A program made the translations under genes and the position numbers. A stretch of DNA of 35,191 nt from Spirochaetia bacterium (lineage in GTDB: Bacteria; Spirochaetota; Spirochaetia; CAKZLE01). This document shows positions 6,255-31,876 of the stretch, piece after piece. The notes beneath the pieces were generated by a model that ran no database searches, was not told the DNA's origin, and saw only the letters and a program-made list of their open reading frames with translations. Each line of letters opens with the position of its first letter. Positions within the stretch are counted from its first letter, which is position 1. The stretch is from the NCBI GenBank assembly GCA_021736385.1, contig JAIPFY010000033.1:1-35191 (forward strand), written 5' to 3'.

Positions 6255-6261
6255 GAGCTAC

Positions 6262-6290
6262 ATTGTACAAGGTATGCAGATACCGGGCAA
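6262..6290 (-). promoter_or_regulatory. Promoter of the antiporter operon (leaderless type)
   Basis: On the minus strand, TTGCCC (6290-6285) and TACAAT (6267-6262) are spaced 17 bp. Seven bases (GTAGCTC) separate the -10 from the ATG at 6254, which puts the expected transcription start at or next to the A of the start codon. Confidence 0.65.
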
Positions 6291-6333
6291 TCATTTTGTT
6301 TTAATATTTCTGTGCTGACCGTCCATCTTCCGG

Positions 6334-6362
6334 ATGACTTCTCAGAAGTTCTTCGCTATACT
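6334..6362 (+). promoter_or_regulatory. Promoter of the DMT transporter gene
   Basis: ATGACT (6334-6339) and TATACT (6357-6362) have a 17-bp spacer. The -10 ends 9 nt before the ATG at 6372, leaving at most 2-3 nt of leader. Confidence 0.5.
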
Positions 6363-6371
6363 CATCTGCAT

Positions 6372-7274
6372 ATGAACACGACGATGATCTTCACCCCCCT
6401 GGCGATCCTGAACGGCAGTCTGATCGCGATCATGATCCTCTTCAATACCCTGCTCGGCAGTGCCGTCGGGCTCACCTTCTCCATCCTGGTGATCCAGAGT
6501 GCGGGGCTGCTGCTCACACTGCTGCTGTCCCTGCTTCGAAGCTATCCCAAGGGAGCTCCCGCCCCCGCGTACCTGAGGATCGGGGGAGCGCTCGGGGTTC
6601 CCATCGTGCTGCTGAACACCATCTGCTTTCTCAATATAGGGGCTTCACTCACGCTCGCCTGCGGGGTCCTCGGTCAGGCCTCGGCCTCTCTGGGAGCAGA
6701 TCTGACCGGGTTCCTCGGAGTTCGCCGATATGCCTTCGAAAAGCAGAAACTCATCGGGTTCCTGATCTCTCTGGTCGGGGTCGCCGTCATGGCCGTAGGC
6801 GGGAGCTTCTCACCGCTCTATATCCTGCTTGCGTTCTCTGCAGGCATCATCACGATCATCCAGATGATCATCAACTCGCAGCTTGCCGTGCGGATCGGGC
6901 TGTTCCGCAGCACCCGCAGCAACTTCGTAGGAGGGCTCATCGCCAGTGCGGCCCTCTGCCTCGCTGCAGGGGTCTCTCTCTCAGAGAGCGTGCGGCTGCT
7001 TCCGGACGTCCCGCTGCAGTATATCCTCGGAGGAGGCTGGCTCGGTGTCGTGATCGTCTTCACCATCAACTGGATCCTTCCCAGAATCCCGACAGTCTAC
7101 TCCTCTCTGCTGATGTTCTCAGGTCAGATCATCACCGCGATCATCATCGATGCCATGAGATACGGGTTCTTCCCCCGCGATCAGCTCATCGGAGCGATCT
7201 GCATCCTTGCCGGGATGCTCTACAATGTGAATGTTGACAGGATCGAGGAACAGAAGCGCTCCGCTGTCAGCTGA
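6372..7274 (+). CDS. DMT-family transporter, YdcZ (DUF606) type, duplicated form
   Basis: The 300-residue protein has about ten hydrophobic segments arranged as two similar halves of five. Each half has the YdcZ pattern: GGALGVPIVLLNTICFLNIG with GASLTLACGVLGQ in the first half, and LGGGWLGVVIVFTINWILPR with LLMFSGQIITAIIID in the second. Single-copy YdcZ proteins are about 150 residues, so this is the fused, duplicated form. The family belongs to the drug/metabolite transporter superfamily and the substrate is unknown. The frame is open upstream to 5787, inside the antiporter gene, but hydrophobic coding starts only at the ATG at 6372, directly after the promoter. It is convergent with the MutY-like gene and overlaps it by 8 nt. 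Confidence 0.82.
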   Translation: MNTTMIFTPLAILNGSLIAIMILFNTLLGSAVGLTFSILVIQSAGLLLTLLLSLLRSYPKGAPAPAYLRIGGALGVPIVLLNTICFLNIGASLTLACGVLGQASASLGADLTGFLGVRRYAFEKQKLIGFLISLVGVAVMAVGGSFSPLYILLAFSAGIITIIQMIINSQLAVRIGLFRSTRSNFVGGLIASAALCLAAGVSLSESVRLLPDVPLQYILGGGWLGVVIVFTINWILPRIPTVYSSLLMFSGQIITAIIIDAMRYGFFPRDQLIGAICILAGMLYNVNVDRIEEQKRSAVS

Positions 7275-8172
7275 TCCGATAGCGCGGTGACTGCTCGGCA
7301 GCACTCTCAGCCTCACAGAAGATGAACCCCTCTTTGACCAGGGCCTCTACACAGCTGTCTATGCGGCTTGCATCGAACTTGAGCGATGCATAGAGTTCCT
7401 CTACCGTTGAGGCTCCCCGCTCGGTGAAGACCGTCAGCAGTTCTCCTCTGATCTGTCTGTTCGAGTTCTCGAACTTCGCCTGCCGGGTGTAGTGGGCACT
7501 GCGGCGGTTGGGATTGGGGACCATGGTCTTGAGATAGACCCCGTAATCCATCAGGGCATAGTACCAGTTCCTCGGGTCCCTGCGGTCAAGCAGGGTCTCG
7601 AGCAGCACATAGAGCTCCCGGTCATGGACCTGATCGACCCCATGGTAGAAGAAATAGATCAGGACCCTGCGGATGTTGGTCTCAAGATAGAGGGAGGGTA
7701 TACCATGGGCAAACGCCAGCAGGGCAGCAGAGGTGGCAGGCCCTACCATGGGCAGGGCTTTCAGCTCCTTCTGATCGACCGGCAGGGTCCCCGCATACGT
7801 TCGTGTGCTGATCTCTGCGATCTTCTTGAGTGCAAGGGCCCTTCGGTTATACCCCAGACCCTTCCAGCAGGAGAGCACATCAGTGAGGGAAGCCCGTGAG
7901 AGCGCCTCGAGGGTCGGCCACCGCTGGAGGAACTCCTCATACTTCGGGAGTGCACGGGCGGTCTGTGTCTGCTGCAGCATCATCTCTGATAACAGGATAT
8001 GATAGGGGTCAGAAGTCTCTCTCCAGGGAAAGGAACGCCCTGACACTCTGTAGTGGCTGTATATGATCTCCCGGAACGAGTCGACGACCTCACCGGTGAC
8101 CGCTATCCCCTCAGGGAACGGCTGCGGCAGCTGGTCGAACTCGACCCGGGGTTCAGAGCTCTGCTTTCTCAC
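7267..8172 (-). CDS. MutY-like HhH-GPD DNA glycosylase lacking the iron-sulfur motif
   Basis: The 301-residue protein is a HhH-GPD base-excision glycosylase nearest to adenine glycosylase MutY. The block [18 protein letters not shown] contains the MutY catalytic glutamate (E63) and adenine-pocket residues. The helix-hairpin-helix is [15 protein letters not shown] (about 138-152). In the GPD strand the usual catalytic Asp (LDGNVKRV in E. coli MutY) is replaced by Glu in LETNIRRV (E164). The four-cysteine iron-sulfur loop that normally follows is absent; the region reads [13 protein letters not shown]. The C-terminal NUDIX-like recognition domain is also missing, and a short winged-helix-like tail (about 240-290) takes its place. 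The start is GTG at 8172, 20 nt inside the trpS 3' end. Activity on A:8-oxoG is likely but unproven. Confidence 0.82.
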
Positions 8173-9214
8173 GTTTCTTCTTCACCGTCTCTGCTTTCCG
8201 GCTGATCTTGTTCCAGGTACCCGAGAGACCCATGGCCTTCCGCATCAGCATGATCGTCTCTCTGGACTCCCTGCGCATCTTCATCGTTCCGTCATAGATG
8301 ACTTCATCGACGAGACCGGAGATCCCGGAGAACTGTTCCCTCCGCTCCCTGATGGGGATGAGGGTCTCATTGAGGGCTCGCACGAGCTTCTCCTTGACCT
8401 CGACATCCCCTACTCGTCCTTCCCGGTAACGCAGCTTGAGGTCTTCCACCTCCGCCTTGTCATGATTGAAGACATCATGGTAGATGAATACCGGGTTGCC
8501 CTCTACGGTTCCCGGGATGTCGGCTCGGATCCGGTTCGGATCGGTATACATGCCGAAGACCTTCTTTTTGACCGTCTTCTCATCATCGGAGAGAAAGATC
8601 GCGTTGTTGAGCGATTTTGACATCTTGGCGTTGCCGTCTGTCCCCACGAGCGACCCCACTTCACCGACAAGCACCTCTGGGACGGGGAATACCTCACCGT
8701 AGAGATAGTTGAACTTCCTCGCGATCTCCCGTGTCAGTTCCACATGGGCTTCGTTGTCTTTTCCCACCGGGACCAGATGAGCTCTGGGCATCAGGATATC
8801 GGCGGCCTGAAGCACCGGATAGCCAAGCAGCCCGAAGGGCATCTCATTCAGATCTGCAGAGCGTGCCATCTCCTTGAGACTCGGGACTCTCTGGAGCCTC
8901 GGGACACTCACCATGTTCTCGAAGAGCAGGTTCATCTCATAGATCTCCGGAACCGCTGACTGCAGATAGATCACCGCCTTCTGAGGGTCTATCCCGCAGG
9001 AGAGATAATCGAGGACCATCTCTCTCGCATGCTCGGCGATCTGTGCGATATGCTCTTTACCGGGTTTTGTGGTGAGGGTATGCAGATCCGCGATGATGAA
9101 GAAGCACTCGTAGGACTCCTGCAGGCGCACACGATTCTGAAGAGAACCAAGATAGTGACCGAGATGCAGTTTTCCAGTAGGCCTGTCGCCTGTCAGTATT
9201 CGTTTCCGTTCCAT
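8153..9214 (-). CDS. trpS: Tryptophanyl-tRNA synthetase
   Basis: The 353-residue class I aminoacyl-tRNA synthetase charges tRNA-Trp in the cytoplasm. The HIGH signature is HLGH (17-20) in [12 protein letters not shown], and the second signature is KMSKS (197-201). IADLHTLTT and [21 protein letters not shown] are further conserved blocks. The frame extends to 9268, but the ATG at 9214 is chosen because AGAGG lies 6 nt upstream and [14 protein letters not shown] is the usual N-terminus. The MutY-like gene overlaps its 3' end and is probably co-transcribed. Confidence 0.95.
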
Positions 9215-9370
9215 TTCAAGCCTCTTTATGATGCCGATCCGCAGCAAGCAGAATCTGTCCGCGTACATGTGAGATCAGTACAGGAATGTAGTATATGATA
9301 GACCCTCTCGAACATGAGACATGATCGGAAGAGATATGACTCAGACTCTATAACCCAATGAAAGATTTGT

Positions 9371-10546
9371 CTAGCCCTGAGGGTTCCCGTCGGGCGATCG
9401 TTCCTTCTCTGATCCGGTCTGCATCCTGCTCAATCTTCTGGCGACCCGCTCTCGTGAGTAGCGGTCCTTTCTCTGTCGCTCCTCGGTATCGATCTGTTTG
9501 CGGTACTGTTTTCCGCTGCTGAGCAGGACCGCGATCGGCTTGAGGGGTTTGACATTATCGCACATGATCTGCAGCCCAGCGGTGATGGGAACGGCGAGGA
9601 ACATGCCGATGATGCCCCAGATGTATCCCCACAGGGCAAGAGAGACCAGGATGACGAACGGGCTGAGGTTCAGCCTGTTCCCCTGGACCCTCGGGTCCAG
9701 GATATTGCCGAGCACGATCTGGATGGATGCCATGAGGACCGAGACATAGAGGATACTGGCGTAGTCAGGATAGTACTGGATCAGTGCGATGCAGATCGTG
9801 GTGACCGTTATGATGATGGACCCGATGGTCGGGATGAAATTGAGGATGAATGCGAGCACACCGATGATGAAGGCGAAATCCAGTCGGGTGGCGATCGCCG
9901 CAAGGTAGAACAGGACACCGGTGCTCAGACTGAACAGGGCTTTCACGGTAAGGTATTTCGATATCTGCCGGTTGATCCTCTCGAACATGACTGCCCATCT
10001 GATCCATCCGTGATTCGGCATGGCGACTTTCATCTTGGGGATCAGTGACCTGCGTTCCATGAGCAGGAAGAGCACGAAAATGAAGATGATGAAGGCTGAT
10101 GAGAAGATCGATACGGCAGATTCAGAGACATTCGAGAGAATATTGATCAGGAGTCCCTGCCAGTTGAAGGTGAAGGATTCAAGGAAGCTGATACCGGTCT
10201 GCAGGTCGAGGATCTCAGAGACCCAGACATCGAACCTGCTGATGAGCATGCTGATACGTACCGAATAGCGGGGTATCTCGGAGATCAGGGTGTTCACGGC
10301 GAAGGAGAAGAACAGGATAGCCATGAAAAAGACCATGACCAGGACTGCCATGGCCAGGAGGATGGCAAGCCATCTGGGGAATCCCGCTTTTTCCATCCGG
10401 TTGACGAACGGACTGAGGATGAAGAAACAGAACAATGAGATCATCAGGGGGAGCGTGACCGAAGCGCCGTACTTGAGAACGACGATCAGCAGCACGATCC
10501 CTGCTGCATAGACTACTGTTTTCATCGATTTATCAGCAACTGCCAT
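9371..10546 (-). CDS. AI-2E family (PerM-like) membrane transporter
   Basis: The 391-residue protein has the AI-2E/PerM family layout: hydrophobic segments at about 10-35, 55-80, 150-170 and 210-345, with a soluble loop between about 80 and 145. Typical blocks are LPLMISLFCFFILSPFV near the N-terminus, FILNFIPTIGSIIITV in the middle, and VQGNRLNLSPFVILVSLALWGYIWGIIGMFLAVPI near the end (shown in pieces: NRLNLSPFVILVSL, GIIGMFLAVP). The tail from about 350 is very basic and probably cytosolic. Family members export small molecules, including AI-2 or ions; the substrate cannot be read from the sequence. The ATG at 10546 directly follows a -10 by 6 nt, so the mRNA is probably leaderless; the frame is open to 10576. 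Confidence 0.87.
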   Translation of the reverse strand: MAVADKSMKTVVYAAGIVLLIVVLKYGASVTLPLMISLFCFFILSPFVNRMEKAGFPRWLAILLAMAVLVMVFFMAILFFSFAVNTLISEIPRYSVRISMLISRFDVWVSEILDLQTGISFLESFTFNWQGLLINILSNVSESAVSIFSSAFIIFIFVLFLLMERRSLIPKMKVAMPNHGWIRWAVMFERINRQISKYLTVKALFSLSTGVLFYLAAIATRLDFAFIIGVLAFILNFIPTIGSIIITVTTICIALIQYYPDYASILYVSVLMASIQIVLGNILDPRVQGNRLNLSPFVILVSLALWGYIWGIIGMFLAVPITAGLQIMCDNVKPLKPIAVLLSSGKQYRKQIDTEERQRKDRYSRERVARRLSRMQTGSEKERSPDGNPQG

Positions 10547-10552
10547 GAAACA

Positions 10553-10581
10553 ACTATAGTCCACCTTGGAAAACAAGGCAA
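10553..10581. promoter_or_regulatory. Bidirectional promoter with palindromic -10 (perM-like / trmJ-like)
   Basis: The octamer ACTATAGT (10553-10560) is its own reverse complement, so TATAGT reads as a -10 on both strands. On the minus strand TTGCCT (10581-10576) lies exactly 17 bp away, and the perM-like ATG follows the -10 by 6 nt. On the plus strand the same element precedes the trmJ-like gene, though its -35 is poor. Confidence 0.6.
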
Positions 10582-12352: not shown

Positions 12353-13455
12353 CGCTCTGAGACGGTATCGATGATCCCGCCGCCGAGCAGATACTCCCCA
12401 TGGTAGCAGACAGCTGACTGACCCGGGGTGATCGATGCCGGGGTGCCGAGCACGATCTCGTTCCCCTCTTCTGCAGGGACGAGCAGACCCTGCTGCTCCG
12501 GTGAGTTGTATCGAATTTTGATCTTGAGCTTCCCGGCTGCTGAGAGTTCTGCACGCAGCGAGGGCGGGATGAACCAGTTCTCCTCACGCAGGCTGAAACG
12601 GCTGTGCAGCAGAGCCTCTTTCCTCCCCACGACCACGCTGTTATGATCCGCATCCAGTCTCTTGACGTACCACGGGCCGTCACTGAGGCCGAGTCCCTGC
12701 CGCTGCCCGAGCGTGTAGTGCATATAACCCCGGTGGGTCCCGAGCACTCTGCCCTCTTCATCGATGATCTTCCCCTCTGCAGAGACCGTCTCCCTGCCGT
12801 AGATCTCAATGAGCTTGTCGGTGTACTTCCCCGGGATGAAGCAGATGTCCTGACTCTCTTTCACGCTGGAGCTGGGGAACCCCTCACGGACAGCGATCTT
12901 CACGATCTCCTCTTTGGTATACTCCCCGAGGGGGAAGCGGATGGACATCAGGCGCGAGGGAAGGATGCGATAGAGCATATAGGACTGATCCTTGCTCAGG
13001 TCCCGGCCCTTCATGATCACCGGGTACCCTTCGTACTCCCCGATCCGTGCATAATGCCCGGTGGCGAAGAGAAAGCGAGCCTGATCGCTTATGATATGCT
13101 CTGATACAAGCCGGTCATGACAGAGCTGATAGAATCTGTTGAAGCGGATGCGTTCGTTACATCTGATGCAGGGATTGGGAGTCCTGCCGTGTCGGTATTC
13201 ACCAGCGAAATCGGCTATGACCGATTCAGTGAACTCATCGATGAGATCGAACCGGTAATACGGGATCCCGAACCTCGCGGCCAGGTCCCGGGCCCTGCCG
13301 AGGGTCTGCTCGTTACAGGTCAGACTGTTGGTGCAGATATCATGGCTGGCCCCGACGATATGATCATATTCCTTGCTCAGCAGATAGAGCGCTACGCTCG
13401 AATCCACTCCCCCGCTCAGCCCTACAGCGACTGCAGTCTCTACTTCTTTGTTCAT
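12349..13455 (-). CDS. mnmA: tRNA 2-thiouridine(34) synthase MnmA
   Basis: The 368-residue enzyme thiolates U34 of Lys, Glu and Gln tRNAs. The ATP-PPase P-loop is SGGVDSS (14-20). The first catalytic cysteine is in PNPCIRCN (C96) and the second is in SQDICFIP (C205). TGHYARI and HYTLGQRQGLGL are further family marks. The frame is open to 13500, but the ATG at 13455 gives the usual short N-terminus and stands 6 nt after a TATGAT hexamer, so a leaderless transcript is likely. No sulfur-relay genes are nearby. Confidence 0.94.
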   Translation of the reverse strand: MNKEVETAVAVGLSGGVDSSVALYLLSKEYDHIVGASHDICTNSLTCNEQTLGRARDLAARFGIPYYRFDLIDEFTESVIADFAGEYRHGRTPNPCIRCNERIRFNRFYQLCHDRLVSEHIISDQARFLFATGHYARIGEYEGYPVIMKGRDLSKDQSYMLYRILPSRLMSIRFPLGEYTKEEIVKIAVREGFPSSSVKESQDICFIPGKYTDKLIEIYGRETVSAEGKIIDEEGRVLGTHRGYMHYTLGQRQGLGLSDGPWYVKRLDADHNSVVVGRKEALLHSRFSLREENWFIPPSLRAELSAAGKLKIKIRYNSPEQQGLLVPAEEGNEIVLGTPASITPGQSAVCYHGEYLLGGGIIDTVSER

Positions 13456-13461
13456 GCGTGC

Positions 13462-13491
13462 ATCATAGGATACAATCGTGCAGTGTTTCAA
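13462..13491 (-). promoter_or_regulatory. Promoter of mnmA (leaderless type)
   Basis: On the minus strand TTGAAA (13491-13486) and TATGAT (13467-13462) are 18 bp apart. The 6 nt GCACGC separate the -10 from the ATG, so the expected start of transcription is the start codon itself. Confidence 0.6.
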
Positions 13492-13549
13492 TCTGCTCAC
13501 CGGCTGTTCACCGGGGTTTTCTCCTCAGGGACCGACTTCCAACTTCATA

Positions 13550-13577
13550 TTGACAGATGCCCCATATAGCGTACAAT
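13550..13577 (+). promoter_or_regulatory. Promoter of the glpQ-like gene (leaderless type)
   Basis: A perfect TTGACA (13550-13555) lies 16 bp before TACAAT (13572-13577). The ATG at 13585 follows the -10 by 7 nt. An earlier in-frame ATG at 13576 overlaps the -10 itself and so cannot be in this transcript. Confidence 0.7.
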
Positions 13578-13584
13578 GATCGGT

Positions 13585-14394
13585 ATGAACAGATCATTCT
13601 TCACCCCCATGCCAAGGATCCTCGCCCACAGAGGGGATTCAGCCCGATTCCCTGAGAACACCCTTCCGGCTTTCCTCAGTGCGGCTGAACTCGGCGTCGA
13701 TGTCATAGAGACCGATGTACATCTCACCTCTGACGGACAGATCATCATCTGGCATGATGATACGCTCGATCGGGAGACCGACGGCAGCGGACCGGTGGAG
13801 GACCACACGCTCAAGGAGCTTCTCACCCTTGATGCCGGCTATCATTTCTCCACAGACGGGGGGCAGACCTTCCCGTTCAGGGGTACCGGTATCCATATGC
13901 TCACCTTTGAAGATGCCCTGCAGGCACTGCCCCATATGAGATTCAATGTGGATCTGAAGACCGATCATACCGATATCGCACAGGCCTTCGGGGAACTCGT
14001 GGAACGGCATCAGGCACAGGATCGTATCCTGTGTGCATCTTTCCATGCCGATAACCTGATCCATGTGCGCAGGAAGTTCCCGGACCTTGCTACGAGCATG
14101 TCCCGTAAAGAGGTACGCACTCTGGTGTTCATGCAGAAGCTCCACCTGCCTCTGTGGCGTTCAGCTGTTCCAGGGATCGCCTTTCAGGTTCCCGAGCGAG
14201 AGGGCCGCATCACGGTGATCACTCCCGGGTTCATCAGACGATTCCATCGCATGGGTATCCATATTCAGGTGTGGACGATCAATGATGCTGCTGCTATGCA
14301 CCGGCTGCTCGACATGGGAGTCGATGGTATCTTCACCGATGACCCCAGAGTCCTGATAGCGGTGCTCAAAGAACGTGAGCCCAAGCAGCTGTAG
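13585..14394 (+). CDS. Glycerophosphodiester phosphodiesterase
   Basis: The 269-residue TIM-barrel enzyme hydrolyses glycerophosphodiesters to glycerol-3-phosphate and an alcohol. Catalytic and metal-binding residues are recognisable: HRG (15-17), PENT (23-26), IETDVHLT (E42, D44), WHDD (H57), NVDLK (121-125) and the terminal VWTINDAAAMHRLLDMGVDGIFTDDP, given here by its ends WTIN and GIFTDDP. There is no signal peptide, so it acts in the cytoplasm, unlike periplasmic GlpQ. The start is the ATG at 13585, because the upstream ATG at 13576 lies inside the -10. The gene stands alone between mnmA and the tRNA gene. Confidence 0.9.
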   Translation: MNRSFFTPMPRILAHRGDSARFPENTLPAFLSAAELGVDVIETDVHLTSDGQIIIWHDDTLDRETDGSGPVEDHTLKELLTLDAGYHFSTDGGQTFPFRGTGIHMLTFEDALQALPHMRFNVDLKTDHTDIAQAFGELVERHQAQDRILCASFHADNLIHVRRKFPDLATSMSRKEVRTLVFMQKLHLPLWRSAVPGIAFQVPEREGRITVITPGFIRRFHRMGIHIQVWTINDAAAMHRLLDMGVDGIFTDDPRVLIAVLKEREPKQL

Positions 14395-14757: not shown

Positions 14758-15398
14758 CCCTTTGCATAATATTTAATCACGTTTTTTCCCGGGTATCCTG
14801 CGATCATCCCAACCCGACGGGCAAGGACATCCATAGACTCCCGTGTGAAGAATGATATGTGGCTGGGATCCTCTTTATACCACCAGGAGGTGAAGGCAGC
14901 ACCTATCTGTCTGGTGACCAGCTGCGTCTGCATGATGATGATCCCACCGGGGTTCAGCAGCTGAGAAAGCTGCTGGATGACCGCTGCAGGGTCAGAAGTA
15001 TGTTCTATGACTTCAAGCAGGATCACCAGATCATAGGTGTGTGCGGTGTAGCTGGTATCAGGGGCGAAGAAGGGATCATAGGCATCGGTAGTGAACCCGG
15101 CCTCGCGCAGGAGCTCTGTGAGCACCGGCAGCGGTCCTGATCCGAAATCAAGGATCCTGCAGTCCGCTGCTGCGTGTGGAAGGACCGACTCATTCAGAAA
15201 CCGCTGAAGATACTGTACGTAGCCCTCGTTCTCCCTGCTGTTCTCATGGAGCAGATACCGCTGCCGCTCCTCTTCGCGTCCAAGCGACTGCTGTCTGTCG
15301 CGCATGATGAATCCGCACTCCTCGCAGACCTGGAAACGAGCACCCCGGGCATCCTGAAGCAGCTGCTGCTTCTGACTGTGACATATGATGCATCTCAT
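14754..15398 (-). CDS. Zinc-ribbon class I SAM-dependent methyltransferase (paralogue 1)
   Basis: The 214-residue protein starts with a zinc-ribbon-like CxxC...CxxC (C3, C6, C25, C28) and continues with a class I methyltransferase domain: motif I ILDFGSGPLPVL (about 82-93), an acidic YDPFFAP after strand 2, motif post-I/II LLEVIEHTSDP, and LNPGGIIIMQTQL. The region after it (WWYKEDPSHISFFTRESM) matches a subgroup of Methyltransf_23-like enzymes acting on unknown substrates. It is clearly related to the protein encoded at 30961-31620, with the same CIIC start, FGSGP motif, EVxEH and HISFxT elements. The ATG at 15398 stands 6 nt after TATACT, so the mRNA is probably leaderless; the frame is open to 15434. 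It is divergent from the PAP2 gene. Confidence 0.8.
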   Translation of the reverse strand: MRCIICHSQKQQLLQDARGARFQVCEECGFIMRDRQQSLGREEERQRYLLHENSRENEGYVQYLQRFLNESVLPHAAADCRILDFGSGPLPVLTELLREAGFTTDAYDPFFAPDTSYTAHTYDLVILLEVIEHTSDPAAVIQQLSQLLNPGGIIIMQTQLVTRQIGAAFTSWWYKEDPSHISFFTRESMDVLARRVGMIAGYPGKNVIKYYAKG

Positions 15399-15404
15399 GA
15401 GAGC

Positions 15405-15433
15405 AGTATAGCATATTGATTGATTTATATACA
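15405..15433 (-). promoter_or_regulatory. Promoter of methyltransferase 1 (leaderless type)
   Basis: TATACT (15410-15405, minus) is followed by the 6 nt GCTCTC and the ATG. The possible -35, TGTATA (15433-15428), is weak. It lies inside the spacer of the divergent PAP2 promoter. Confidence 0.5.
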
Positions 15434-22503: not shown

Positions 22504-24636
22504 CTATTTCATAACAAAATGAAAGATTCTGCTGTCATACTCATGTCTGAACGCGATCGCCAGACCACAGCGCTGGAGGTACTCACCGGTCAGCAGCCGC
22601 ATCGCTTCAGAACCTGAGCGTACCGGGTTCATCATGTGCTGTTCAAGATGCTCTGCAAGCAACTCTCGCACCTCGTACATGCGGTCTTCCTGCAGTCCCG
22701 CAAGACGGATCTGCTCATACGCAGACCCAACAGAGAAGCGCAGTTCCCACACGAACAGGAGTGCTTCTGAACGGTCAGGCAGAACGTACATGATCGCTGC
22801 ATGATGCTGCTCATACGGCGATACCAGACGGTAGAGCTCACCGGATACGATCAGATGGCGTATTCCCTTATAGGTGCTGACAGCTTCGCAGAGGAACTCA
22901 CGGTCCTCACCGCTGAGTGCCAGTGGAGAGAGCTCGACACCGAACCGGCAGCTCATGGCAACAGAGCACCTGAATGCGAGGGGAAGATGCCTTCCGGTGA
23001 TATGGTTGGTCTCTGAACCCACATGGGCCGCCGTGACAGACGGCGGATAGAACATACCGGTCCCCCACTGGATGAAGATCCGCTGCAGAGCATCGGTGTT
23101 GTCGCTTGCCCAGAACTCATGCGTCCTGTGCAGGGCACCGTACTCCACCCTGCCCCCGCCTGAGGCACAGTCCTGTATCACCAGTGCAGGATACCGTTCA
23201 CCAAGGTGCTCCAGGATCCTGTAGTAGTTCTCCACATACCGGTCATAGACGGCAAAGCCCCCGGAGAGCTCCTTGATGTCCCGGTTGCAGTCCCATTTTA
23301 TATAATCGATTCCCGGATTCTGATCCAGGATCTGCTCGATGGTACCGATGACCCAGATGAGGACCTCCTCGCGGGAGAGATCGAGGACATACTGTCCCCG
23401 TTCCAGTGAGGCCTCACGATGCTCAGCGCTCAGGATCCATTCCGGATGCTGCTCGAAGAGCCTGCTCCGGGGATTGACCATCTCCGGTTCGATCCACAGC
23501 CCGAAGGTCATCCCCCGCTCACGGCACCGATCGATCAGCGGGGTGAGACCGCGGGGTAATTTGGCCGGCTGCACCTGCCAGTCTCCCAGACCCTGCGTAT
23601 CATCATCTCTCGGGTAGTCACTGCCGAACCAGCCGTCATCAAGCACGAAAGTCTCTATGCCGATCCGGGCTGCACCGTCGATCATCTGCAGCAGCAGGGT
23701 CTCATCGAAATCAAAATAGGCTGCTTCCCAGCTGTTCAGGACGATGGATCTCGGGTTAGCTGCATCCGGGATCATCCGCTGCTTCGCCCATCGGTGGAAC
23801 CTGCGCGATACCGTACCCCGGCCGCTCTCGCTATAGGTAAGATAGAGATGAGGCATCTGGTACGATGCCCCTGCTGTAAGGATCCGCCTGGCAGTGTCAG
23901 GATGGTCTCCCGCGATCAGAGAGATGGTACCATCGGGATCATGATCGAGCAGGAACGCCCAGTTCCCCGACCAGGCATAGGCAGCCCCGATGCAGATGCC
24001 GGTCTGCTCACCGACTGCGTGTTCTCCATGTGAGAGGATGATCGAGGGATTCGCGAACCGGGTGGTCCTGACCCCGCACCGCTCTCCAGTGATATGGATC
24101 CCGGGGTTGAGTCTCTGCTCGTTCATATGCATCTCATGAGCCCAGCTTCCGGTACAGTTCGTCAGGACCCCTTCTTTCCAGGAAAGCGGCAGGAATGCTG
24201 CCGCCATATAGTCGATGATACAGGAAGTGTCGCTGCAGTTGGTCACACGGGTGTACATGCCGATCATATCATATTCATAGTCGGCCTCGATGATCAGAGA
24301 GACCTCGAGCTGCAGATACGAATCGAACAGGGACAGGACCAGGGTCTGCTCATCGGCAGCTTCACTGCCGGTAAACAGCAGTCTGGCACTGGTGTGCTGC
24401 TGCTCTGATCCTTTACTGACCCTGAAGGCCGGGCTCCTGCGGTAGACCCCGCCGAATGCCGGGTAGGCCTCGGGAGCCGAGGCGGCGCCCTCAAGGGCAG
24501 AGATCGTCCTCTCATCGGTGATCCGTGAACCGAAATAGAGCAGCTCCAGAGGAGCGCCGATCAGCGTACGGTAGAGGATCGTCTGATTGGTGGTGTGGAT
24601 GCCGCAGCAGCTGTTCGATCTGTATATATGTTTCAT
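22504..24636 (-). CDS. Alpha-galactosidase, GH36
   Basis: The 710-residue glycoside hydrolase releases alpha-linked galactose, for example from melibiose or raffinose. The N-terminal beta-supersandwich (about 1-295) precedes the TIM barrel. VLDDGWFG (331-338), LWIEPEMVNP (380-389), the nucleophile in YIKWDCN (D449), DCASGGGR (489-496) and the acid/base in WASDNTDA (D512) are all as expected for clan GH-D. There is no signal peptide, so it acts in the cytoplasm. The frame is open to 24750, but the ATG at 24636 starts just before the family N-terminus and stands 6 nt after TATGAT, giving a likely leaderless mRNA. The divergent AraC gene is its probable regulator. No sugar transporter is in the window. 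Confidence 0.95.
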   Translation of the reverse strand: MKHIYRSNSCCGIHTTNQTILYRTLIGAPLELLYFGSRITDERTISALEGAASAPEAYPAFGGVYRRSPAFRVSKGSEQQHTSARLLFTGSEAADEQTLVLSLFDSYLQLEVSLIIEADYEYDMIGMYTRVTNCSDTSCIIDYMAAAFLPLSWKEGVLTNCTGSWAHEMHMNEQRLNPGIHITGERCGVRTTRFANPSIILSHGEHAVGEQTGICIGAAYAWSGNWAFLLDHDPDGTISLIAGDHPDTARRILTAGASYQMPHLYLTYSESGRGTVSRRFHRWAKQRMIPDAANPRSIVLNSWEAAYFDFDETLLLQMIDGAARIGIETFVLDDGWFGSDYPRDDDTQGLGDWQVQPAKLPRGLTPLIDRCRERGMTFGLWIEPEMVNPRSRLFEQHPEWILSAEHREASLERGQYVLDLSREEVLIWVIGTIEQILDQNPGIDYIKWDCNRDIKELSGGFAVYDRYVENYYRILEHLGERYPALVIQDCASGGGRVEYGALHRTHEFWASDNTDALQRIFIQWGTGMFYPPSVTAAHVGSETNHITGRHLPLAFRCSVAMSCRFGVELSPLALSGEDREFLCEAVSTYKGIRHLIVSGELYRLVSPYEQHHAAIMYVLPDRSEALLFVWELRFSVGSAYEQIRLAGLQEDRMYEVRELLAEHLEQHMMNPVRSGSEAMRLLTGEYLQRCGLAIAFRHEYDSRIFHFVMK

Positions 24637-24642
24637 ATGAAC

Positions 24643-24671
24643 ATCATATAACGAAGGTATACCTATATACA
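24643..24671 (-). promoter_or_regulatory. Promoter of the alpha-galactosidase gene (leaderless type)
   Basis: TATGAT (24648-24643, minus) precedes the ATG by the 6 nt GTTCAT. The candidate -35 TGTATA (24671-24666, 17-bp spacer) is weak, as often at activator-dependent promoters. The whole divergent region is markedly AT-rich. Confidence 0.5.
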
Positions 24672-24681
24672 TGTAATATGT

Positions 24682-24687
24682 TATGAT
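24682..24687 (+). promoter_or_regulatory. -10 element of the AraC regulator gene
   Basis: TATGAT ends exactly 6 nt before the GTG at 24694. No good -35 is seen at the right distance. The spacing matches the leaderless genes of the window and supports the GTG start. Confidence 0.4.
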
Positions 24688-24693
24688 ACATAT

Positions 24694-25539
24694 GTGATAT
24701 ATGACCATTTTGCCATGAACGAACAGCTGCAGATCAGACGGCCCTCTCATGCCGTCTCCTATACTCCCGGTCTGATCATCTCCTGTGCAGGCGAGAGCTG
24801 GTGGCGTGCCGGCGCAGGCTACCGGAGACCGCAGGGGAACGCCTTCGAGGTCGGCTTCGAGTATGTGCTCTCTGGTGATGCTGAACTGGATCGAGGGGGG
24901 GTCACCACCGTGGTCGGCGCGGGAGAGGTCTTCGTCTTCATGACCGGCAGCGATACCCGCTATGCCACCGGCCCATCAGGGGCCCTGCATAAGCGGTTTG
25001 CCACGCTCAACGGTACGGCACTCATGCCGCTGATGCGCAGTATGGGACTGCTTGGCCTCATGACGTTCACCCCGAAACTGCCTCAGCGGTTCCTGGAGCT
25101 GCTGACCGCCGCTCAGAAGATCCTCTCCGAACAGGGGAGTGCTGACGATATGGAGCTTTCGGTGATCGCCTGGCAGCTGCTTCAGGAGGCAGGGCGCTCC
25201 TATGCCCATAGGATCGCTGAACCGGTAGAGCGGATGCTCTGCTACATCGGAGACCATCTGCATGAGGCGATCACCCTCGAAGCGGTAGCTGATGCGGTGC
25301 ATATGAGCCCCACACACCTCAACCGACTCGCGAAGAGACATCTGGGGACCTCTGTCATGGAGTACTGCTATACACAGCGGTTGCTGTGGGCACGGGAGAT
25401 GCTCCTGAACACCTCCCAGCCGATCAAGGAGATCGCTCTGAGCTCTGGGTTCTCTGACCCCCTCTACTTCTCCTCCAGGTTCAAACAACGGTTCGGACTT
25501 GCCCCTTCTCTGTTCAGACGCAGTCAGCTCGGAGGCTGA
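24694..25539 (+). CDS. AraC-family transcriptional regulator
   Basis: The 281-residue protein has an N-terminal cupin-like sensor region (about 25-165, including GNAFEVGFEYVLSGDAELDR and GAGEVFVFMTGS in pieces) and a C-terminal double helix-turn-helix (about 183-278) with ITLEAVADAVHMSPTHLNRL and the second helix QPIKEIALSSGFSDPLYFSSRFK, truncated here to IKEIALSSGFSDPLYFS. It is transcribed away from the alpha-galactosidase gene across 57 bp and most likely controls it in response to a galactoside. The start is either GTG at 24694, which fits a -10 placed 6 nt upstream, or ATG at 24715; neither has a Shine-Dalgarno sequence. The 3' end overlaps the convergent serine dehydratase gene by 16 nt. 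Confidence 0.9.
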   Translation: MIYDHFAMNEQLQIRRPSHAVSYTPGLIISCAGESWWRAGAGYRRPQGNAFEVGFEYVLSGDAELDRGGVTTVVGAGEVFVFMTGSDTRYATGPSGALHKRFATLNGTALMPLMRSMGLLGLMTFTPKLPQRFLELLTAAQKILSEQGSADDMELSVIAWQLLQEAGRSYAHRIAEPVERMLCYIGDHLHEAITLEAVADAVHMSPTHLNRLAKRHLGTSVMEYCYTQRLLWAREMLLNTSQPIKEIALSSGFSDPLYFSSRFKQRFGLAPSLFRRSQLGG

Positions 25540-26720
25540 CCTATCCTCGCCAGTCCTCCTCCCGAGGTCTCGCGGTAGAGGGAAGGCAGGGCATGTCCGG
25601 TCTCCTTCATCACCGAGACCACCTGATCGAACGAGACCCGATGCATCCCGTCCGAGAGCAGACTGTAGTTCATATGGTTCAGAGCCCGTACCGCGGCAAG
25701 CGCGTTCCGTTCGATGCAGGGGATCTGCACCAGGCCGCCGATCGGGTCACAGGTCAGCCCGAGATGGTGTTCAAGCCCCATCTCCGCCGCATATTCGATC
25801 TGCCGGGCAGATCCGCCCATCAGTTGTGCACTGGCCCCTGAGGCCATGGCACAGGCTGTACCTATCTCTCCCTGACACCCTACTTCAGCTCCCGATATCG
25901 AAGCATGCTCCTTAACCAGTGCACCGATGATCCCTGCAGTGGCCAGTGCCCTGATGATCCTGCTTTCGGGCAGCTTGTAGACTTCCTTCTGGTACCGCAG
26001 GACCGCTGGAAGCACCCCGCAAGACCCGCAGGTGGGAGCGGTTACGACCATCCCGCCTGCAGCATTCTCCTCGGAGACCGCCAGGGCATAGGCATAGACT
26101 TTTGACCGTTTGCCCATCGGTCCGCTGAAGTGCGTAGCCTTTGCATAGTAGCCTGATGCCTTTCTCGGCAGATTGAGCCCTCCGGGGAGGACTCCCTCAT
26201 GATCAAGACCGGCCTTGAGGGCACTCTTCATCACCTTCCAGACTTCATTGAGATAGTCCGGAAGATCCGCATCCTCATGCTCGAACACATACTCCCACAT
26301 AGGTCTTCCGCTGGTCTCACACCACTGCATGATCTGATTCATCGTATCAAGCGGATAGATATGACGCTCGGGCAGCTGCTGCTGATCTTTCACGATCTTA
26401 CCGCCGCCGACACTGTAATAGATCTCATGTATATCATCGGGAAGGAGGGTTATCTTCAGGGCATTGGGATGGCGGGGTAGTTCGGTCTCAGGCTGCCAGA
26501 GGACTTCACAGCTCGCCCCTGCCCTGCGTGCCTCTTCCATGATGGCGACATCGGTCATATGACCTCGTCCGGTCGCAGCCAGACTCCCGTAGAGGGTCAC
26601 TTCGATATGAGAGGCTCCCCGGTGTCCCGTGAGGAACTCTTCGACCGCTTTGCGCGGTCCCATGGTATGACTGCTTGACGGGCCGTACCCTATGCGAAAT
26701 ATATCTTTGATGGTTTCCAT
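25524..26720 (-). CDS. sdaA: L-serine dehydratase, iron-sulfur type, single chain
   Basis: The 398-residue enzyme deaminates L-serine to pyruvate and ammonia. The beta domain comes first, with IGYGPSSSHTMGPRKAVEEF (10-29), followed by the alpha domain with TAPTCGSCGVLPAVL (228-241). The likely [4Fe-4S] ligands are C282, C324 and C335; the spacings 42 and 11 equal those of the Legionella enzyme (C343, C385, C396). It is shorter than the E. coli protein (454). The ATG at 26720 starts directly with the family N-terminus. A TATCAT ends 5 nt before it, with TTCTCA 17 bp further, so the mRNA may be leaderless. The oxygen-sensitive cluster fits an anaerobe. Confidence 0.94.
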   Translation of the reverse strand: METIKDIFRIGYGPSSSHTMGPRKAVEEFLTGHRGASHIEVTLYGSLAATGRGHMTDVAIMEEARRAGASCEVLWQPETELPRHPNALKITLLPDDIHEIYYSVGGGKIVKDQQQLPERHIYPLDTMNQIMQWCETSGRPMWEYVFEHEDADLPDYLNEVWKVMKSALKAGLDHEGVLPGGLNLPRKASGYYAKATHFSGPMGKRSKVYAYALAVSEENAAGGMVVTAPTCGSCGVLPAVLRYQKEVYKLPESRIIRALATAGIIGALVKEHASISGAEVGCQGEIGTACAMASGASAQLMGGSARQIEYAAEMGLEHHLGLTCDPIGGLVQIPCIERNALAAVRALNHMNYSLLSDGMHRVSFDQVVSVMKETGHALPSLYRETSGGGLARIGQPPS

Positions 26721-26725
26721 ACACC

Positions 26726-26754
26726 ATGATACCCGGTTTGCCCCATCATGAGAA
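26726..26754 (-). promoter_or_regulatory. Possible promoter of the serine dehydratase gene
   Basis: TTCTCA (26754-26749) and TATCAT (26731-26726) on the minus strand are 17 bp apart; the -10 ends 5 nt before the ATG. Both hexamers are only moderate matches. Confidence 0.35.
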
Positions 26755-26890: not shown

Positions 26891-27409
26891 CTACAGCAGG
26901 CTCTCGATCTGCGGTGCTATCTTCTCAGGTGTGACGTTCGGTGCGAACCGTTCGAAGAGTCTTCCCTCCCGGTCGATGAGGAACTTGGTGAAGTTCCATT
27001 TGATCTCATCACCGAGGACTCCCTTGAGCTTTCCCAGCACCCCGCCCGATCCTGCTCTACGAAGTTCTGCTGAGGCTTCTTTGAGCTGGACGAACAGCGG
27101 TGAGGCATTCGGTCCGTTGACGTCGATCTTGGAGAAGGTCTTGAAGGAGACCCCGTAGGTGAGCTGGCAGAACTGCACGATCTCCTGATCGGTCCCGGGT
27201 GCCTGGTTGTGAAACTGATTGCAGGGAAAATCGAGGATCTCGAATCCTTCATCCCGATACTTCAGATAGAGACGTTCCAGTCCCTCATACTGCGGGGTGA
27301 ACCCGCAGCCGGTAGCGGTGTTCACGATCAGCAGGACCTTCCCCCGATAATCGGCCAGCGGGATATCGTGCTGATCTGCATCTTTCACGGTCACATCATA
27401 TAACTGCAT
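26891..27409 (-). CDS. Glutathione peroxidase-family thiol peroxidase
   Basis: The 172-residue protein has the GPx fold: peroxidatic cysteine C35 in TATGCGFTPQYEGL, glutamine Q65 in FPCNQF, and Trp-Asn in KWNFTKFL (W138, N139), the full catalytic tetrad. Cysteine, not selenocysteine, is used. C81 in IVQFCQLTYG fits the resolving cysteine of thioredoxin-dependent members, so thioredoxin is the likely reductant. A Gly-rich insert (GSGGVLGKLKGVLG) precedes the tetrad Trp. The frame is open to 27466, but the ATG at 27409 is the usual N-terminus and AGAGG lies about 10 nt upstream. It follows the NUDIX-like gene by 115 nt on the same strand. Confidence 0.93.
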   Translation of the reverse strand: MQLYDVTVKDADQHDIPLADYRGKVLLIVNTATGCGFTPQYEGLERLYLKYRDEGFEILDFPCNQFHNQAPGTDQEIVQFCQLTYGVSFKTFSKIDVNGPNASPLFVQLKEASAELRRAGSGGVLGKLKGVLGDEIKWNFTKFLIDREGRLFERFAPNVTPEKIAPQIESLL

Positions 27410-28073: not shown

Positions 28074-28421
28074 CTGATGACCTCCTCATGCGATGCTGTA
28101 CTACCATTATCACCGGGAGGTCAGACATATAGTGTCGGTGTGAACAGGACCTTCAAAAAAAAACGGTGTGATCCCAGGTCTGAGGGAGCAGCCCTCTGAA
28201 GAACTCCCTCATACAGGGCACATGCAGCCTGCATATCTTTTGCAGTACCGAAGCATCCGGTGTATACTGTGCAGGAGATAGTTACTCACTCTACTGAGAC
28301 ACAAAGCATCAGTCCCTCAGTCCTGCCACAGGCTGGGAACTCCTGACCAGCGGTCAGGCCGGGGAGCTGCGAGGCAGAGGAGCCTATCGTGCCGATCCCC
28401 AGGTGCAGGTACGGAGGATGT
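28074..28421. other. 348-bp divergent intergenic region upstream of the WYL regulator
   Basis: No gene is seen. The left end holds the Shine-Dalgarno sequence of the NUDIX-like gene. The right part holds the WYL promoter (28240-28268), a near-perfect inverted repeat CTGTGCAGGA (28267-28276) / TCCTGCCACAG (28321-28331, one bulged base), and a short hairpin CCTGACC-AGC-GGTCAGG (28342-28358). A run of nine A residues lies near 28155. Confidence 0.5.
28240..28268 (+). promoter_or_regulatory. Promoter of the WYL regulator gene
   Basis: TTGCAG (28240-28245) and TATACT (28263-28268) are exactly 17 bp apart. The transcript would have a leader of about 147 nt, the longest inferred here. Confidence 0.6.
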
Positions 28422-29408
28422 ATGGGTAAGAACAGCATGGAGAGGATCATCTACATAGATGAGCTGCTGCGTGATCACAGCTTCCCGAAGAAACAGGACT
28501 TCGCAGAACACTTCGAAGTGTCAGGGAAGACCATCGAAAGGGATCTCGAATACATGAGGGACCGGCTCGGAGCCCCTGTAGTCTACGACAGGGAGCGATG
28601 CGGGTATTGTTATGAACAGGAGGGGTACTATATCCCTTCGTGCCATATGCAGCAGCAGGAAGCCCTTGCCCTGTTCATATCGCATTATCTGGGCAATGCA
28701 TGGAAGGCGACTCCCCTTGCCGACGCTGCCCAGCGGCTGTGGAAGCGGGTATCGGGATCCATCAGTGAAGAACTGCTCATAGACACCTCGGCATTCAGTC
28801 AGACCGTCCATCTGGTCGATCAGTCGGTGGAGATCGATACCCGGTCCTGGCTCTCGGTATTCACTGCAGCTCGGAACAGGAGAAAGATCAGGATCACCTA
28901 CCGTTCACAGGGAAAGGCTGCCGCCGAGCGGGTCATACGTCCCTACCGGCTGATCCATCACCGTAACAGCTGGTATGTGCTGGCGTATGACGAGAACCGG
29001 CAGATGCCACTGATGTTCAGCATCTCCAGGATCGAAGGGCTGACCGAACTCGATGAGGCGTTCACCATACCGGAGCAGTTCTCCATCTCCGACTATATCG
29101 ATCCGAGATTCGGTATCCATATCGGGGGGACCCCCTGTACCGTGGTCATTCAGCTTGAGAAGAGCCTGTTGGCAGTGGTATCAGAGCATATGCCCGCAAC
29201 AAACAGACAGATCCGTCAGTGCAGTGACAGCACGTGCACGATCAGCTTCGAGACCAACCAGAGGGAAGAACTCAAGCACTGGCTGCTGCAGTGGGGAGGG
29301 AACATTGAAGTGATCGAACCTCAGGAGATGCGGGACGAACTCGCTGCGATCGGGAGATACTACGTCGACACCTATACCAGAGATACCCCCGGCACTGAAG
29401 TCCAGTGA
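28422..29408 (+). CDS. YafY-type transcriptional regulator with WYL domain
   Basis: The 328-residue protein has an N-terminal DeoR-like winged helix-turn-helix (about 6-60, RIIYIDELLRDHSFPKKQDFAEHF read in part, and VSGKTIERDLEYMRDRL), a middle helical region and the WYL domain (about 150-225) with ITYRSQGKAAAERVIRPYRLIHHRNSWYVLAYD, here seen by RPYRLIHHRNSWYVLAY. A WCX-like C-terminal region follows (about 240-315). WYL regulators bind nucleic-acid or nucleotide ligands and often control phage-defence or DNA-damage genes; no such target is next to it. The ATG at 28422 has GGAGG 4 nt upstream, and ATG 28437 is an alternative. Its stop abuts the convergent pcm stop without a gap. Confidence 0.88.
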   Translation: MGKNSMERIIYIDELLRDHSFPKKQDFAEHFEVSGKTIERDLEYMRDRLGAPVVYDRERCGYCYEQEGYYIPSCHMQQQEALALFISHYLGNAWKATPLADAAQRLWKRVSGSISEELLIDTSAFSQTVHLVDQSVEIDTRSWLSVFTAARNRRKIRITYRSQGKAAAERVIRPYRLIHHRNSWYVLAYDENRQMPLMFSISRIEGLTELDEAFTIPEQFSISDYIDPRFGIHIGGTPCTVVIQLEKSLLAVVSEHMPATNRQIRQCSDSTCTISFETNQREELKHWLLQWGGNIEVIEPQEMRDELAAIGRYYVDTYTRDTPGTEVQ

Positions 29409-30011
29409 TCACAGCAGCGGCACGAACCGCACCGGTATGAGCGGCCGGGTCTGCACTTCGCCCTGCAGATCCCTGGTGATATGATAGAGGTACTGCACCT
29501 CACCTGCAGGGCCGAGAGGAATGATCATGCTGCCTCCGCGCTTCAGCTGGCCCACCAGCTGAAGCGGCAGCTCTGCAGCCGCGGCAGTGACGATGATCTT
29601 ATCGTACGGGGCATGTTCAGGCCATCCCTGTTTCCCGTCTCCTGTATGGTAGGAGATGGTATGATAGCCGAGCTCTTCAAGGGTCTGCTCTGCACGCAGG
29701 GAGAGCTCACTGATACGCTCTACGGTATAGACATGAGAGGCAAGCAGCGAGAGCAGGGCGCTCTGGTACCCGCTTCCTGTCCCGATCTCAAGGACCCTGT
29801 CAGTGCTCTTCAGCTGCAGCCTGTCGGTCATGTAGGCTACGATGAACGGCTGACTGATCGTCTGTCCATAGCCGATGGAGAATGGTGAATCCACTGAGGC
29901 GAATGATGACAGATGGGCTGACATGAAGGCTTCTCTGGGAATGGATTCCAGCTTTTCTATCACCTCACGGCTTATCCCGTCCCAGCTGCAGGATCTGTTG
30001 ATCATGGTCAT
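29409..30011 (-). CDS. pcm: Protein-L-isoaspartate O-methyltransferase
   Basis: The 200-residue enzyme methylates L-isoaspartyl residues in damaged proteins so that they can revert. The N-terminal REAFMSAHLSSFASVDSPFSIGYGQTISQP region holds the typical IGYGQTISQP (about 46-55), followed by SAM motif I VLEIGTGSGYQSALL (73-87), TVERISEL (95-102) and GDGKQGWPEHAPYDKIIVTAA, seen by GDGKQGWPEHAPYDKI. The C-terminus ends with RFVPL. The ATG at 30011 has AAGGG about 9 nt upstream; a second in-frame ATG is two codons later. It faces the WYL regulator gene with directly abutting stops. Confidence 0.94.
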   Translation of the reverse strand: MTMINRSCSWDGISREVIEKLESIPREAFMSAHLSSFASVDSPFSIGYGQTISQPFIVAYMTDRLQLKSTDRVLEIGTGSGYQSALLSLLASHVYTVERISELSLRAEQTLEELGYHTISYHTGDGKQGWPEHAPYDKIIVTAAAAELPLQLVGQLKRGGSMIIPLGPAGEVQYLYHITRDLQGEVQTRPLIPVRFVPLL

Positions 30012-30076
30012 GGCTGCATCCCTTCCCGGTTCTTCTCATCGTTCATAGGTACCCCCTTGTGTGATCCGGCACCTTC

Positions 30077-30105
30077 ATCATACGACTTGAGGGGCGATCA
30101 AACAA
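30077..30105 (-). promoter_or_regulatory. Promoter of pcm
   Basis: TTGTTT (30105-30100) and TATGAT (30082-30077) on the minus strand are 17 bp apart, with an expected leader of about 58 nt. Confidence 0.55.
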
Positions 30106-30287
30106 TATCAGAAGGGGCAAGAATCTCTCTATCCCTGCATCCAGAGCAGACATGGGTATCTCTGTTCAGGTGAATGGTTCATACTACCTATGGTCATCAG
30201 GGCCTCTCAAGGGGTACAGTATCAGTACTGCAGGGAGCCGTATCGCTGCTGCATATACACAACAAGATCTGACAGAGAAGGTATGCT

Positions 30288-30935
30288 ATGACAGAGACAG
30301 CTATCAAGGACCATTCACTCGAAGAGCGGCTCAATGCGCTCACGCATGCAGCCGGTGCAGGGATGAGCATCGCTGCGCTGGTGTTCCTGCTGGTGCTCAT
30401 TCCCGGCGGTCCTGCCGGGAACACTGCCAGGATCGCCTTCAGCATCTACGGGGCGTGCCAGATCCTGCTCTACCTCTCCTCGGCGGTGACCCATCAGTTC
30501 TCTGATACACAGAAGGTGTATCATATTGCCCGTATCTTCGATCAGCTTGCGATCTACTACCTGATCGCAGGCACCTACACACCTATAGCTCTTCTGGTGC
30601 TGCCCGATCCCTGGAGGACTCAGATGCTGATCAGCATATGGGGCCTGGCAGCTCTCGGGACGCTCCTGAAGGCTTGGATCTTCCAGAAGCAGCATAAGCT
30701 CACCGATATCCTCTATGTGCCGATGGGATGGCTGGTCATCCTCTTTCTCAAGCCGCTGCAGCAGCATGCGCCGGATGGGTTCCTCACCCTCCTGATGGCA
30801 GGTGGGATCATCTATACGGTCGGGATCATCTTCTACCTCACACGGAAGATCTATCTCAGTCATGTGATCTGGCACCTGTTCGTGATCGCAGGCAGCATCT
30901 GTTTCTATGCGGCCTTCGCACGCTATCTCATATGA
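30288..30935 (+). CDS. Hemolysin III / PAQR-family membrane protein
   Basis: The 215-residue protein has seven hydrophobic segments and the conserved PAQR/CREST residues: EERLNALTHAAGAG near the N-terminus, SSAVTHQF with the conserved Ser/His (about 64-71), FDQLAIYYLIAGTYTP (about 84-99) and the C-terminal HVIWHLFVIAGS with two histidines. These residues form a metal site in the superfamily (ceramidase-like hydrolases). Bacterial members are labelled hemolysin III, but their function in most species is unknown. The ATG at 30288 has AAGG about 7 nt upstream. The 276-bp gap before it shows nothing apart from the pcm promoter. Confidence 0.9.
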   Translation: MTETAIKDHSLEERLNALTHAAGAGMSIAALVFLLVLIPGGPAGNTARIAFSIYGACQILLYLSSAVTHQFSDTQKVYHIARIFDQLAIYYLIAGTYTPIALLVLPDPWRTQMLISIWGLAALGTLLKAWIFQKQHKLTDILYVPMGWLVILFLKPLQQHAPDGFLTLLMAGGIIYTVGIIFYLTRKIYLSHVIWHLFVIAGSICFYAAFARYLI

Positions 30936-30960
30936 TCAGCTGAGAAGGGGTGAAGATATC

Positions 30961-31620
30961 TCAGTGATCATCGGCAGCAGCAAAGGTGGTATATCTGGTG
31001 CCGTTGCTGTGGAGGATCTGCAGCCCGGTCTGTTCTGCGATGCAGTGCAGGGTCTCAAGCGTATAGAATGAGATATGCGTGGCATCCCTGATATAGTGCC
31101 AGTCGAAGAACTGCTTTCGATCATCGGGGTGGAACAGGGTCATGACCGAAAGAATGCCCTGTTCGCCAAGCAGCTGCCTGAAGAGCCTGAAATAGGGTAA
31201 CGGATCCTGAAGATGTTCCAGGACCTCCGTGCAGGTGAGCAGGTCGTACCGCTTCCCCCTGTAGATCCTCTCAGGGGCATAGTAGAGATCATAGATATCC
31301 ATCTCATAGCCGTGATACCGTTCCAGGATCTGTGCGAGGACCGGTGACGGTCCGCTGCCGAAATCGAGTCCCCGACGGCCGGACCCCGCATAGCCGAAGA
31401 CGGCATCCTCGAGGAAGCGATAGAAGTACGCGACGTAGCGGGGATCATCGATCGAGTTGTTATGATAGTCATAGAGCCTGAGCTCCGCTTCGGGAGAGAG
31501 CAGGTGCTGAGGGTCTTTTGCGATGAACCGGCACGCAGGACAGCGGTGGTACAGCGTCCCGTGCTTCGGGTCTCTCAGCTCCTCGGTTCGTTCTGTGCAT
31601 ATGATACAGGTATTGCTCAC
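30961..31620 (-). CDS. Zinc-ribbon class I SAM-dependent methyltransferase (paralogue 2)
   Basis: The 219-residue protein has the same order as the protein encoded at 14754-15398: a CxxC...CxxC ribbon (C5, C8, C27, C30), SAM motif I LDFGSGPSPVL (about 85-95), an acidic YDLYYAPE after strand 2, LTCTEVLEHLQDPLPYF, and a C-terminal THISFYTLETLH. The substrate is unknown. The start is GTG at 31620, chosen because AAGGAG lies 7 nt upstream and the protein then begins just before CIIC, as in the paralogue; the frame is open to 31653. It is divergent from the UbiA gene and convergent with hemolysin III (25-bp gap). Confidence 0.8.
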   Translation of the reverse strand: MSNTCIICTERTEELRDPKHGTLYHRCPACRFIAKDPQHLLSPEAELRLYDYHNNSIDDPRYVAYFYRFLEDAVFGYAGSGRRGLDFGSGPSPVLAQILERYHGYEMDIYDLYYAPERIYRGKRYDLLTCTEVLEHLQDPLPYFRLFRQLLGEQGILSVMTLFHPDDRKQFFDWHYIRDATHISFYTLETLHCIAEQTGLQILHSNGTRYTTFAAADDH

Positions 31621-31841
31621 TTGGGATCTCCTTGACTGGGGCCTTTCCATCATAGCCCGGATGAGACGGTTTGGGTACCGTCAGTGCATACCACCGGAGA
31701 GCGGTACGCTATCATCCGCGACCACGGGTATCACCCCGGAGCGGTCGTGATCCACCTTCTGGTGGCACTCTGCAGCTGGCAGATCAGAAGTATCCATGCA
31801 CACAAGACCTGCAGATCAAGCATCTTTTTTCACATTATATC

Positions 31842-31870
31842 TTTGTCCCCTGCCCGTTTTCGGGTATAGT
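31842..31870 (+). promoter_or_regulatory. Promoter of the UbiA-type gene (leaderless type)
   Basis: TTTGTC (31842-31847; or TTGTCC one base later with a 16-bp spacer) and TATAGT (31865-31870). The 6 nt GACTGC separate the -10 from the ATG at 31877. Confidence 0.6.
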
Positions 31871-31876
31871 GACTGC

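Follow-up and report, generated by a model that had tools for sequence, protein, structure and literature searches.

Candidate leaderless genes with sigma-70-type promoters in an uncultured Spirochaetia genome and across its class

In leaderless mRNAs the start codon lies at the very 5' end, and it is chiefly 70S ribosomes that translate from it. The synthesis of such messages has been predicted in about 21.6% of bacterial species, and some antibiotics are stated to spare leaderless initiation (PMC9581028). With respect to the spirochaetes, the predictions of Zheng et al. (2011) put leaderless genes in 6 of 18 genomes, at frequencies of 1.8–6.9%; for Deinococcus-Thermus the predicted share was 39%, and for Actinobacteria 19% (PMC3160421). 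The TA-led genes of that survey, in which a TANNNT hexamer precedes the start by about 12 bp and which occur alongside genes led by a Shine-Dalgarno (SD) sequence, resemble the genes described below (PMC3160421); in the latter, however, the layout goes together with a -35 box as well, favours first genes and is conserved in orthologues. Within the same phylum, leaderless transcripts are known from differential RNA-seq (dRNA-seq) of Leptospira interrogans, in which 5' UTRs of 0–10 nt were recorded for about 440 genes and of 0–1 nt for about 240; no common housekeeping promoter motif was reported there, whereas clear sigma-70-like -35 and -10 boxes are present in the DNA considered here (PMC5243855).

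The stretch analysed (the window; 35,191 nucleotides) is contig C17 of a source genome of 3.23 Mb in 113 contigs, and its gene content matched the genes named in the preliminary description, a reading of the window's sequence which drew attention to the promoters concerned. The best named relatives of its mnmA gene were from Spirochaetia and Spirochaetales metagenome-assembled genomes. Presumably the uncultured family of the source was not among the 18 Spirochaetes genomes surveyed by 2011, and Leptospira we take to lie outside the class Spirochaetia. For genome-wide work, 1.15 Mb of the 3.23 Mb (54% GC) was sampled, yielding 929 gene starts called by a coding-only dicodon model blind to upstream sequence; a -10 hexamer was scored as TANNNT, and its distance counted from the end of the hexamer to the start codon. 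A search of the assembly for the 16S rRNA, intended to supply the anti-SD tail, found none.

In the preliminary description seven named genes had a -10 hexamer ending exactly 6 or 7 nt ahead of the ATG, and all seven were recovered. Four of these carried the -35 boxes quoted at the time, each of them present. On the minus strand, the CPA2-type antiporter promoter (6255–6290) consisted of TTGCCC (6285–6290), a 17 bp spacer and TACAAT (6262–6267) 7 nt before the ATG at 6254; that of the AI-2E/PerM-family transporter (10547–10581) of TTGCCT (10576–10581), 17 bp and TATAGT (10553–10558) 6 nt before the ATG at 10546; and that of mnmA (13456–13491) of TTGAAA (13486–13491), 18 bp and TATGAT (13462–13467) 6 nt before the ATG at 13455. 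On the plus strand, the GlpQ-like phosphodiesterase promoter (13550–13584) comprised TTGACA (13550–13555), 16 bp and TACAAT (13572–13577) 7 nt before the ATG at 13585, and that of the UbiA/MenA-family prenyltransferase (31843–31876) comprised TTGTCC (31843–31848), 16 bp and TATAGT (31865–31870) 6 nt before the ATG at 31877.

The remaining two of the seven, both on the minus strand, exhibited only a weak -35: the methyltransferase (Methyltransf_23; 15399–15410), with TATACT (15405–15410) 6 nt before the ATG at 15398, and the GH36 alpha-galactosidase (24637–24648), with TATGAT (24643–24648) 6 nt before the ATG at 24636. The latter is divergent from an AraC-family regulator gene (24682–24693, plus strand), 57 nt separating the two starts, for which the TATGAT (24682–24687) reported 6 nt before a GTG (24694) was likewise found, again with a weak -35. 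As about a quarter of individual calls are expected by chance, single genes lacking a good -35 are less certain, and the methyltransferase, alpha-galactosidase and AraC genes are accordingly less certain than those for the antiporter, PerM-like, MnmA, GlpQ-like and UbiA-like proteins. Of the two near misses put forward, serine dehydratase (26721–26731, minus strand; TATCAT at 26726–26731, 5 nt before the ATG at 26720) was confirmed, while the hexamer said to lie 9 nt before the DMT transporter was not reproduced. A further candidate, glutathione peroxidase (27388, GTG), was rejected: a better-scoring start at 27409 has an SD-like GAGG, and an SD sequence also precedes the orthologue in G001, the only other genome of the same family among the relatives searched (44% GC).

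Several starts within the window differed from the longest-ORF start, and for the perM-like, mnmA and GlpQ-like genes the leaderless start was not the one with the top coding score, the gap being less than 2 units and thus neutral. Since longest-ORF starts are likely to be wrong for genes of the kind of mnmA, perM and glpQ, a promoter model should be used for start calling in these genomes. An additional coding open reading frame on the plus strand (6312–7271; 320 aa, coding score 110) forms a divergent pair with the antiporter gene, with 57 bp between the starts; it was left out of the called genes, probably through an overlap of its best-scoring start with the antiporter.

The plot of hexamer distance against a shuffled control that had been proposed for the whole genome was conducted on the sampled DNA, and displayed a sharp peak at the predicted spacing. 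A TANNNT ended 6 nt ahead of the start in 34 genes and 7 nt ahead in 31, compared with 8–9 genes at each of 4, 8 and 9 nt. Among divergent genes or those with an upstream gap of at least 60 nt the corresponding values were 30 and 28, against 6–7, while only 2 and 3 were recorded for same-strand genes with a gap below 30 nt. With a stricter hexamer, 49 first genes qualified at 6–7 nt, as against 15.9 ± 3.9 (maximum 28) in 200 dinucleotide shuffles of the upstream 60 nt, and the peak persisted when alternative starts of near-equal coding score were allowed. Controls using annotated starts gave no 6–7 nt peak in E. coli (100 kb, 93 starts); a D. radiodurans plasmid, with 80 starts, gave 7 genes at 6–7 nt against 0–3 at every other spacing. 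The Deinococcus peak was missed by the coding-score start caller in 100 kb and became visible only with annotated starts, so the sensitivity of that caller is limited in small or high-GC samples.

Strong leaderless cases numbered 75 of the 929 genes, and an equal criterion applied at control spacings of 3–4 and 8–15 nt returned 13–25 matches; spacings further upstream, in the zone of ordinary leadered promoters, returned 27–37. The resultant excess over chance, about 57 genes, corresponds to about 6% of all genes, or roughly one gene in sixteen. The proposition that the frequency in this lineage is notable holds only in part: the rate, higher among divergent first genes, touches the top of the range published for Spirochaetes without being extraordinary, and it falls far below the values for Deinococcus-Thermus and Actinobacteria. 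Relative to the genome the window is a rich patch, with 9 of its approximately 31 genes strong (binomial p = 6e-4, uncorrected for the reader's choice of the window), although one of the nine, the glutathione peroxidase, is probably false. A second rich patch was encountered at L128 (G000:C48), where 6 of 14 genes were strong leaderless candidates.

Sequences flanking the hexamers were those of promoters. Of the 91 genes with a hexamer at 6 or 7 nt, 49 had a -35 box with at least 4 of 6 matches at 16–18 bp, compared with a background rate of 12% at random upstream positions, and the spacer histogram was dominated by 17 bp (34 genes) and 18 bp (12), with 1–6 elsewhere. The commonest -10 forms were TATGAT, TATACT and TATAGT. 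SD-like motifs were present in 5% of strong cases but in 60% of other genes, in keeping with the earlier contention that the two modes coexist in one genome. Strong cases made up 53 of 264 divergently transcribed genes (20%, a raw value), but among the 326 same-strand genes with a gap below 30 nt there were only 5 (1.5%). A pyrimidine occupied position -1 in 81% of leaderless-type genes against 63% (p = 0.0015), a bias expected if the start codon is +1. Predicted mRNA structure at the 5' end was -5.4 versus -6.2 kcal/mol (p = 0.08), and weaker structure was thus not clearly demonstrated.

Comparison with G001 gave 242 scorable reciprocal-best pairs, in which the layout was strong in both members of 14, in the source genome only in 16, in G001 only in 6 and in neither in 206, a co-occurrence with an odds ratio of 30 (p = 2e-10). 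Column identity upstream of the 14 conserved pairs was 11–14 of 14 at the -10, 8–12 around the -35 and 2–7 at most other columns. Proteins aligned from residue 1 at the leaderless start in 10 of these pairs, and a downstream start with an SD sequence was present in only one. The conserved cases include mnmA, with its -10 at 6 or 7 nt before the ATG in G001 also, and the GlpQ-like gene, with an equal layout (TTGACA..TACAAT, 7 nt), together with mnmE and genes for a DEAD-box helicase, undecaprenyl-diphosphatase and cytidine deaminase. Elsewhere in the window, the G001 orthologues displayed TACAAT 5 nt before the ATG (antiporter), TACGAT at 6 nt (methyltransferase) and TAGTAT at 6 nt (serine dehydratase). 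The alpha-galactosidase layout was not conserved, an SD-like GGAGG being found there instead; because this gene is leaderless-like in one genome and SD-led in the other, it appears that genes can switch initiation mode.

Divergent pairs in which both starts are of the leaderless type were noted at 24636–24694 and 13455–13585 in the window and at L019:18689–18749. The last, a cobA-type adenosyltransferase gene and an MFS transporter gene with both promoters within 59 bp, is kept in G001. With start-to-start distances in such pairs down to 57–59 bp, both promoters must overlap.

Raw pattern counts on the sampled DNA were weak except for a strict TTGAC pattern, and it was therefore the latter (TTGAC-N18,19-TAWNNT-N6,7-ATG, compared with N10,11) which was applied to whole genomes, 247 Spirochaetota genomes being counted. 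Across 69 Spirochaetia genomes there were 1296 strict matches at 6–7 nt and 401 at 10–11 nt (3.2 times), and 59 of the 69 had more at the shorter spacing. Family f19 (16 genomes, 0.9–1.8 Mb) served as an internal control, exhibiting no excess (62 versus 58), which suggests that leaderless promoters were lost in this reduced-genome family. The strongest signal in the class was recorded in G172 (family f32), with 132 strict matches at 6–7 nt and 21 at 10–11 nt. Inspection by eye of mnmA from several families located TANNNT 6 or 7 nt before the ATG in L043, L045, L046, L048, L150, L151, L152 and L161. On balance, and with moderate confidence, we read these data jointly as indicating a leaderless mode that is old and inherited in the class Spirochaetia, perhaps in the Spirochaetota, with the same genes, mnmA for example, kept leaderless across families, with strong expansion in some lineages (in G172 to about 6 times the source-genome excess by the strict pattern) and with loss in the small-genome f19.

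Three other accounts of the layout were weighed. That it reflects chance and hindsight might be argued from the commonness of TANNNT-like hexamers, from starts that were chosen to fit, the choice being free in several genes, and from cases selected by the reader in a window richer than the genome average, and the 13–25 hits per 929 genes at control spacings confirm that such matches do arise. Nevertheless, the peak emerged with starts chosen blind to the motif, and the -35 at 17–18 bp, the conservation in orthologues and the class-wide survey point the same way; this account conflicts with both the genome-wide peak and the orthologue test and is scarcely credible. Alternatively, the AT-rich hexamer could be a translational element, recognised by ribosomal protein S1 or acting as a standby site, rather than a promoter. 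Such a reading has been offered, as one alternative, for AT-rich signals found between -20 and -10 in non-SD genes (PMC5397173), and the genome encodes a full-length S1-type protein, but the specific TANNNT form, its coupling to a -35 at 17–18 bp and its near absence from closely packed same-strand genes largely contradict the proposal, which we regard as very improbable.

It is also conceivable, if unlikely, that the promoters are real and the mRNAs not strictly leaderless, having either leaders of a few nucleotides or a true start downstream behind an SD sequence. Here +1 is deduced from promoter placement, and of the roughly 440 Leptospira genes whose 5' UTR is below 10 nt by dRNA-seq, about half have at least 2 nt (PMC5243855). 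Against this, the spacing is confined to 6–7 nt, with low counts at 3–5 and 8–9, a pyrimidine prevails at -1, 13 of the 14 conserved genes have no downstream SD start, and the alignment of N-termini begins at the leaderless start in 10 of the 14.

Leaderless transcription is preferred as the sole explanation considered that covers together the 6–7 nt peak, the -35 at 17–18 bp, the missing SD, the first-gene bias and the conservation, and it is very probable that these are sigma-70-type promoters whose position makes the first base of the start codon the transcription start. Promoter anatomy and position, like each of those features, were directly observed; they lend support to the earlier proposal of mRNAs that open with the start codon. 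Where transcription actually starts and how these mRNAs are translated are predictions. RNA polymerase with a housekeeping sigma factor of the sigma-70 type would read -35 and -10 boxes 17–18 bp apart. As the -10 ends 6–7 nt ahead of ATG or GTG, and this is the usual distance to +1, the purine at +1 would be the first base (A or G) of that codon, usually preceded by a pyrimidine at -1. The resulting mRNAs would possess neither a 5' UTR nor an SD sequence, and by analogy with known leaderless mRNAs would be translated from the 5'-terminal start codon. The genome would thereby mix a leaderless mode, for about 6% of genes and mostly those first in a transcript, with SD-led initiation for most others, and additional upstream promoters may yield leadered transcripts at leaderless-type genes.

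The leaderless kind of gene is already known, in Spirochaetes included, and what is added here is orthologue conservation, class-wide distribution and corrected starts. To the leaderless expression known experimentally in spirochaetes from Leptospira, the present work adds, as a prediction, an uncultured family of Spirochaetia and the greater part of its class; how widely this mode is used could bear on the drug response of relatives, given the antibiotics stated to spare leaderless initiation. In mycobacteria, members of another phylum, leaderless and leadered genes likewise share one genome (PMC4633059). The geometry is also that of Deinococcus-Thermus, where a -10 (TANNNT) lies about 6–7 bp before the ORF and its promoter function has been shown experimentally; there, however, about one third of genes are involved as against about 6% here, and the commonest -10 is TACACT rather than the TATGAT, TATACT and TATAGT of the present genome (PMC12340547).
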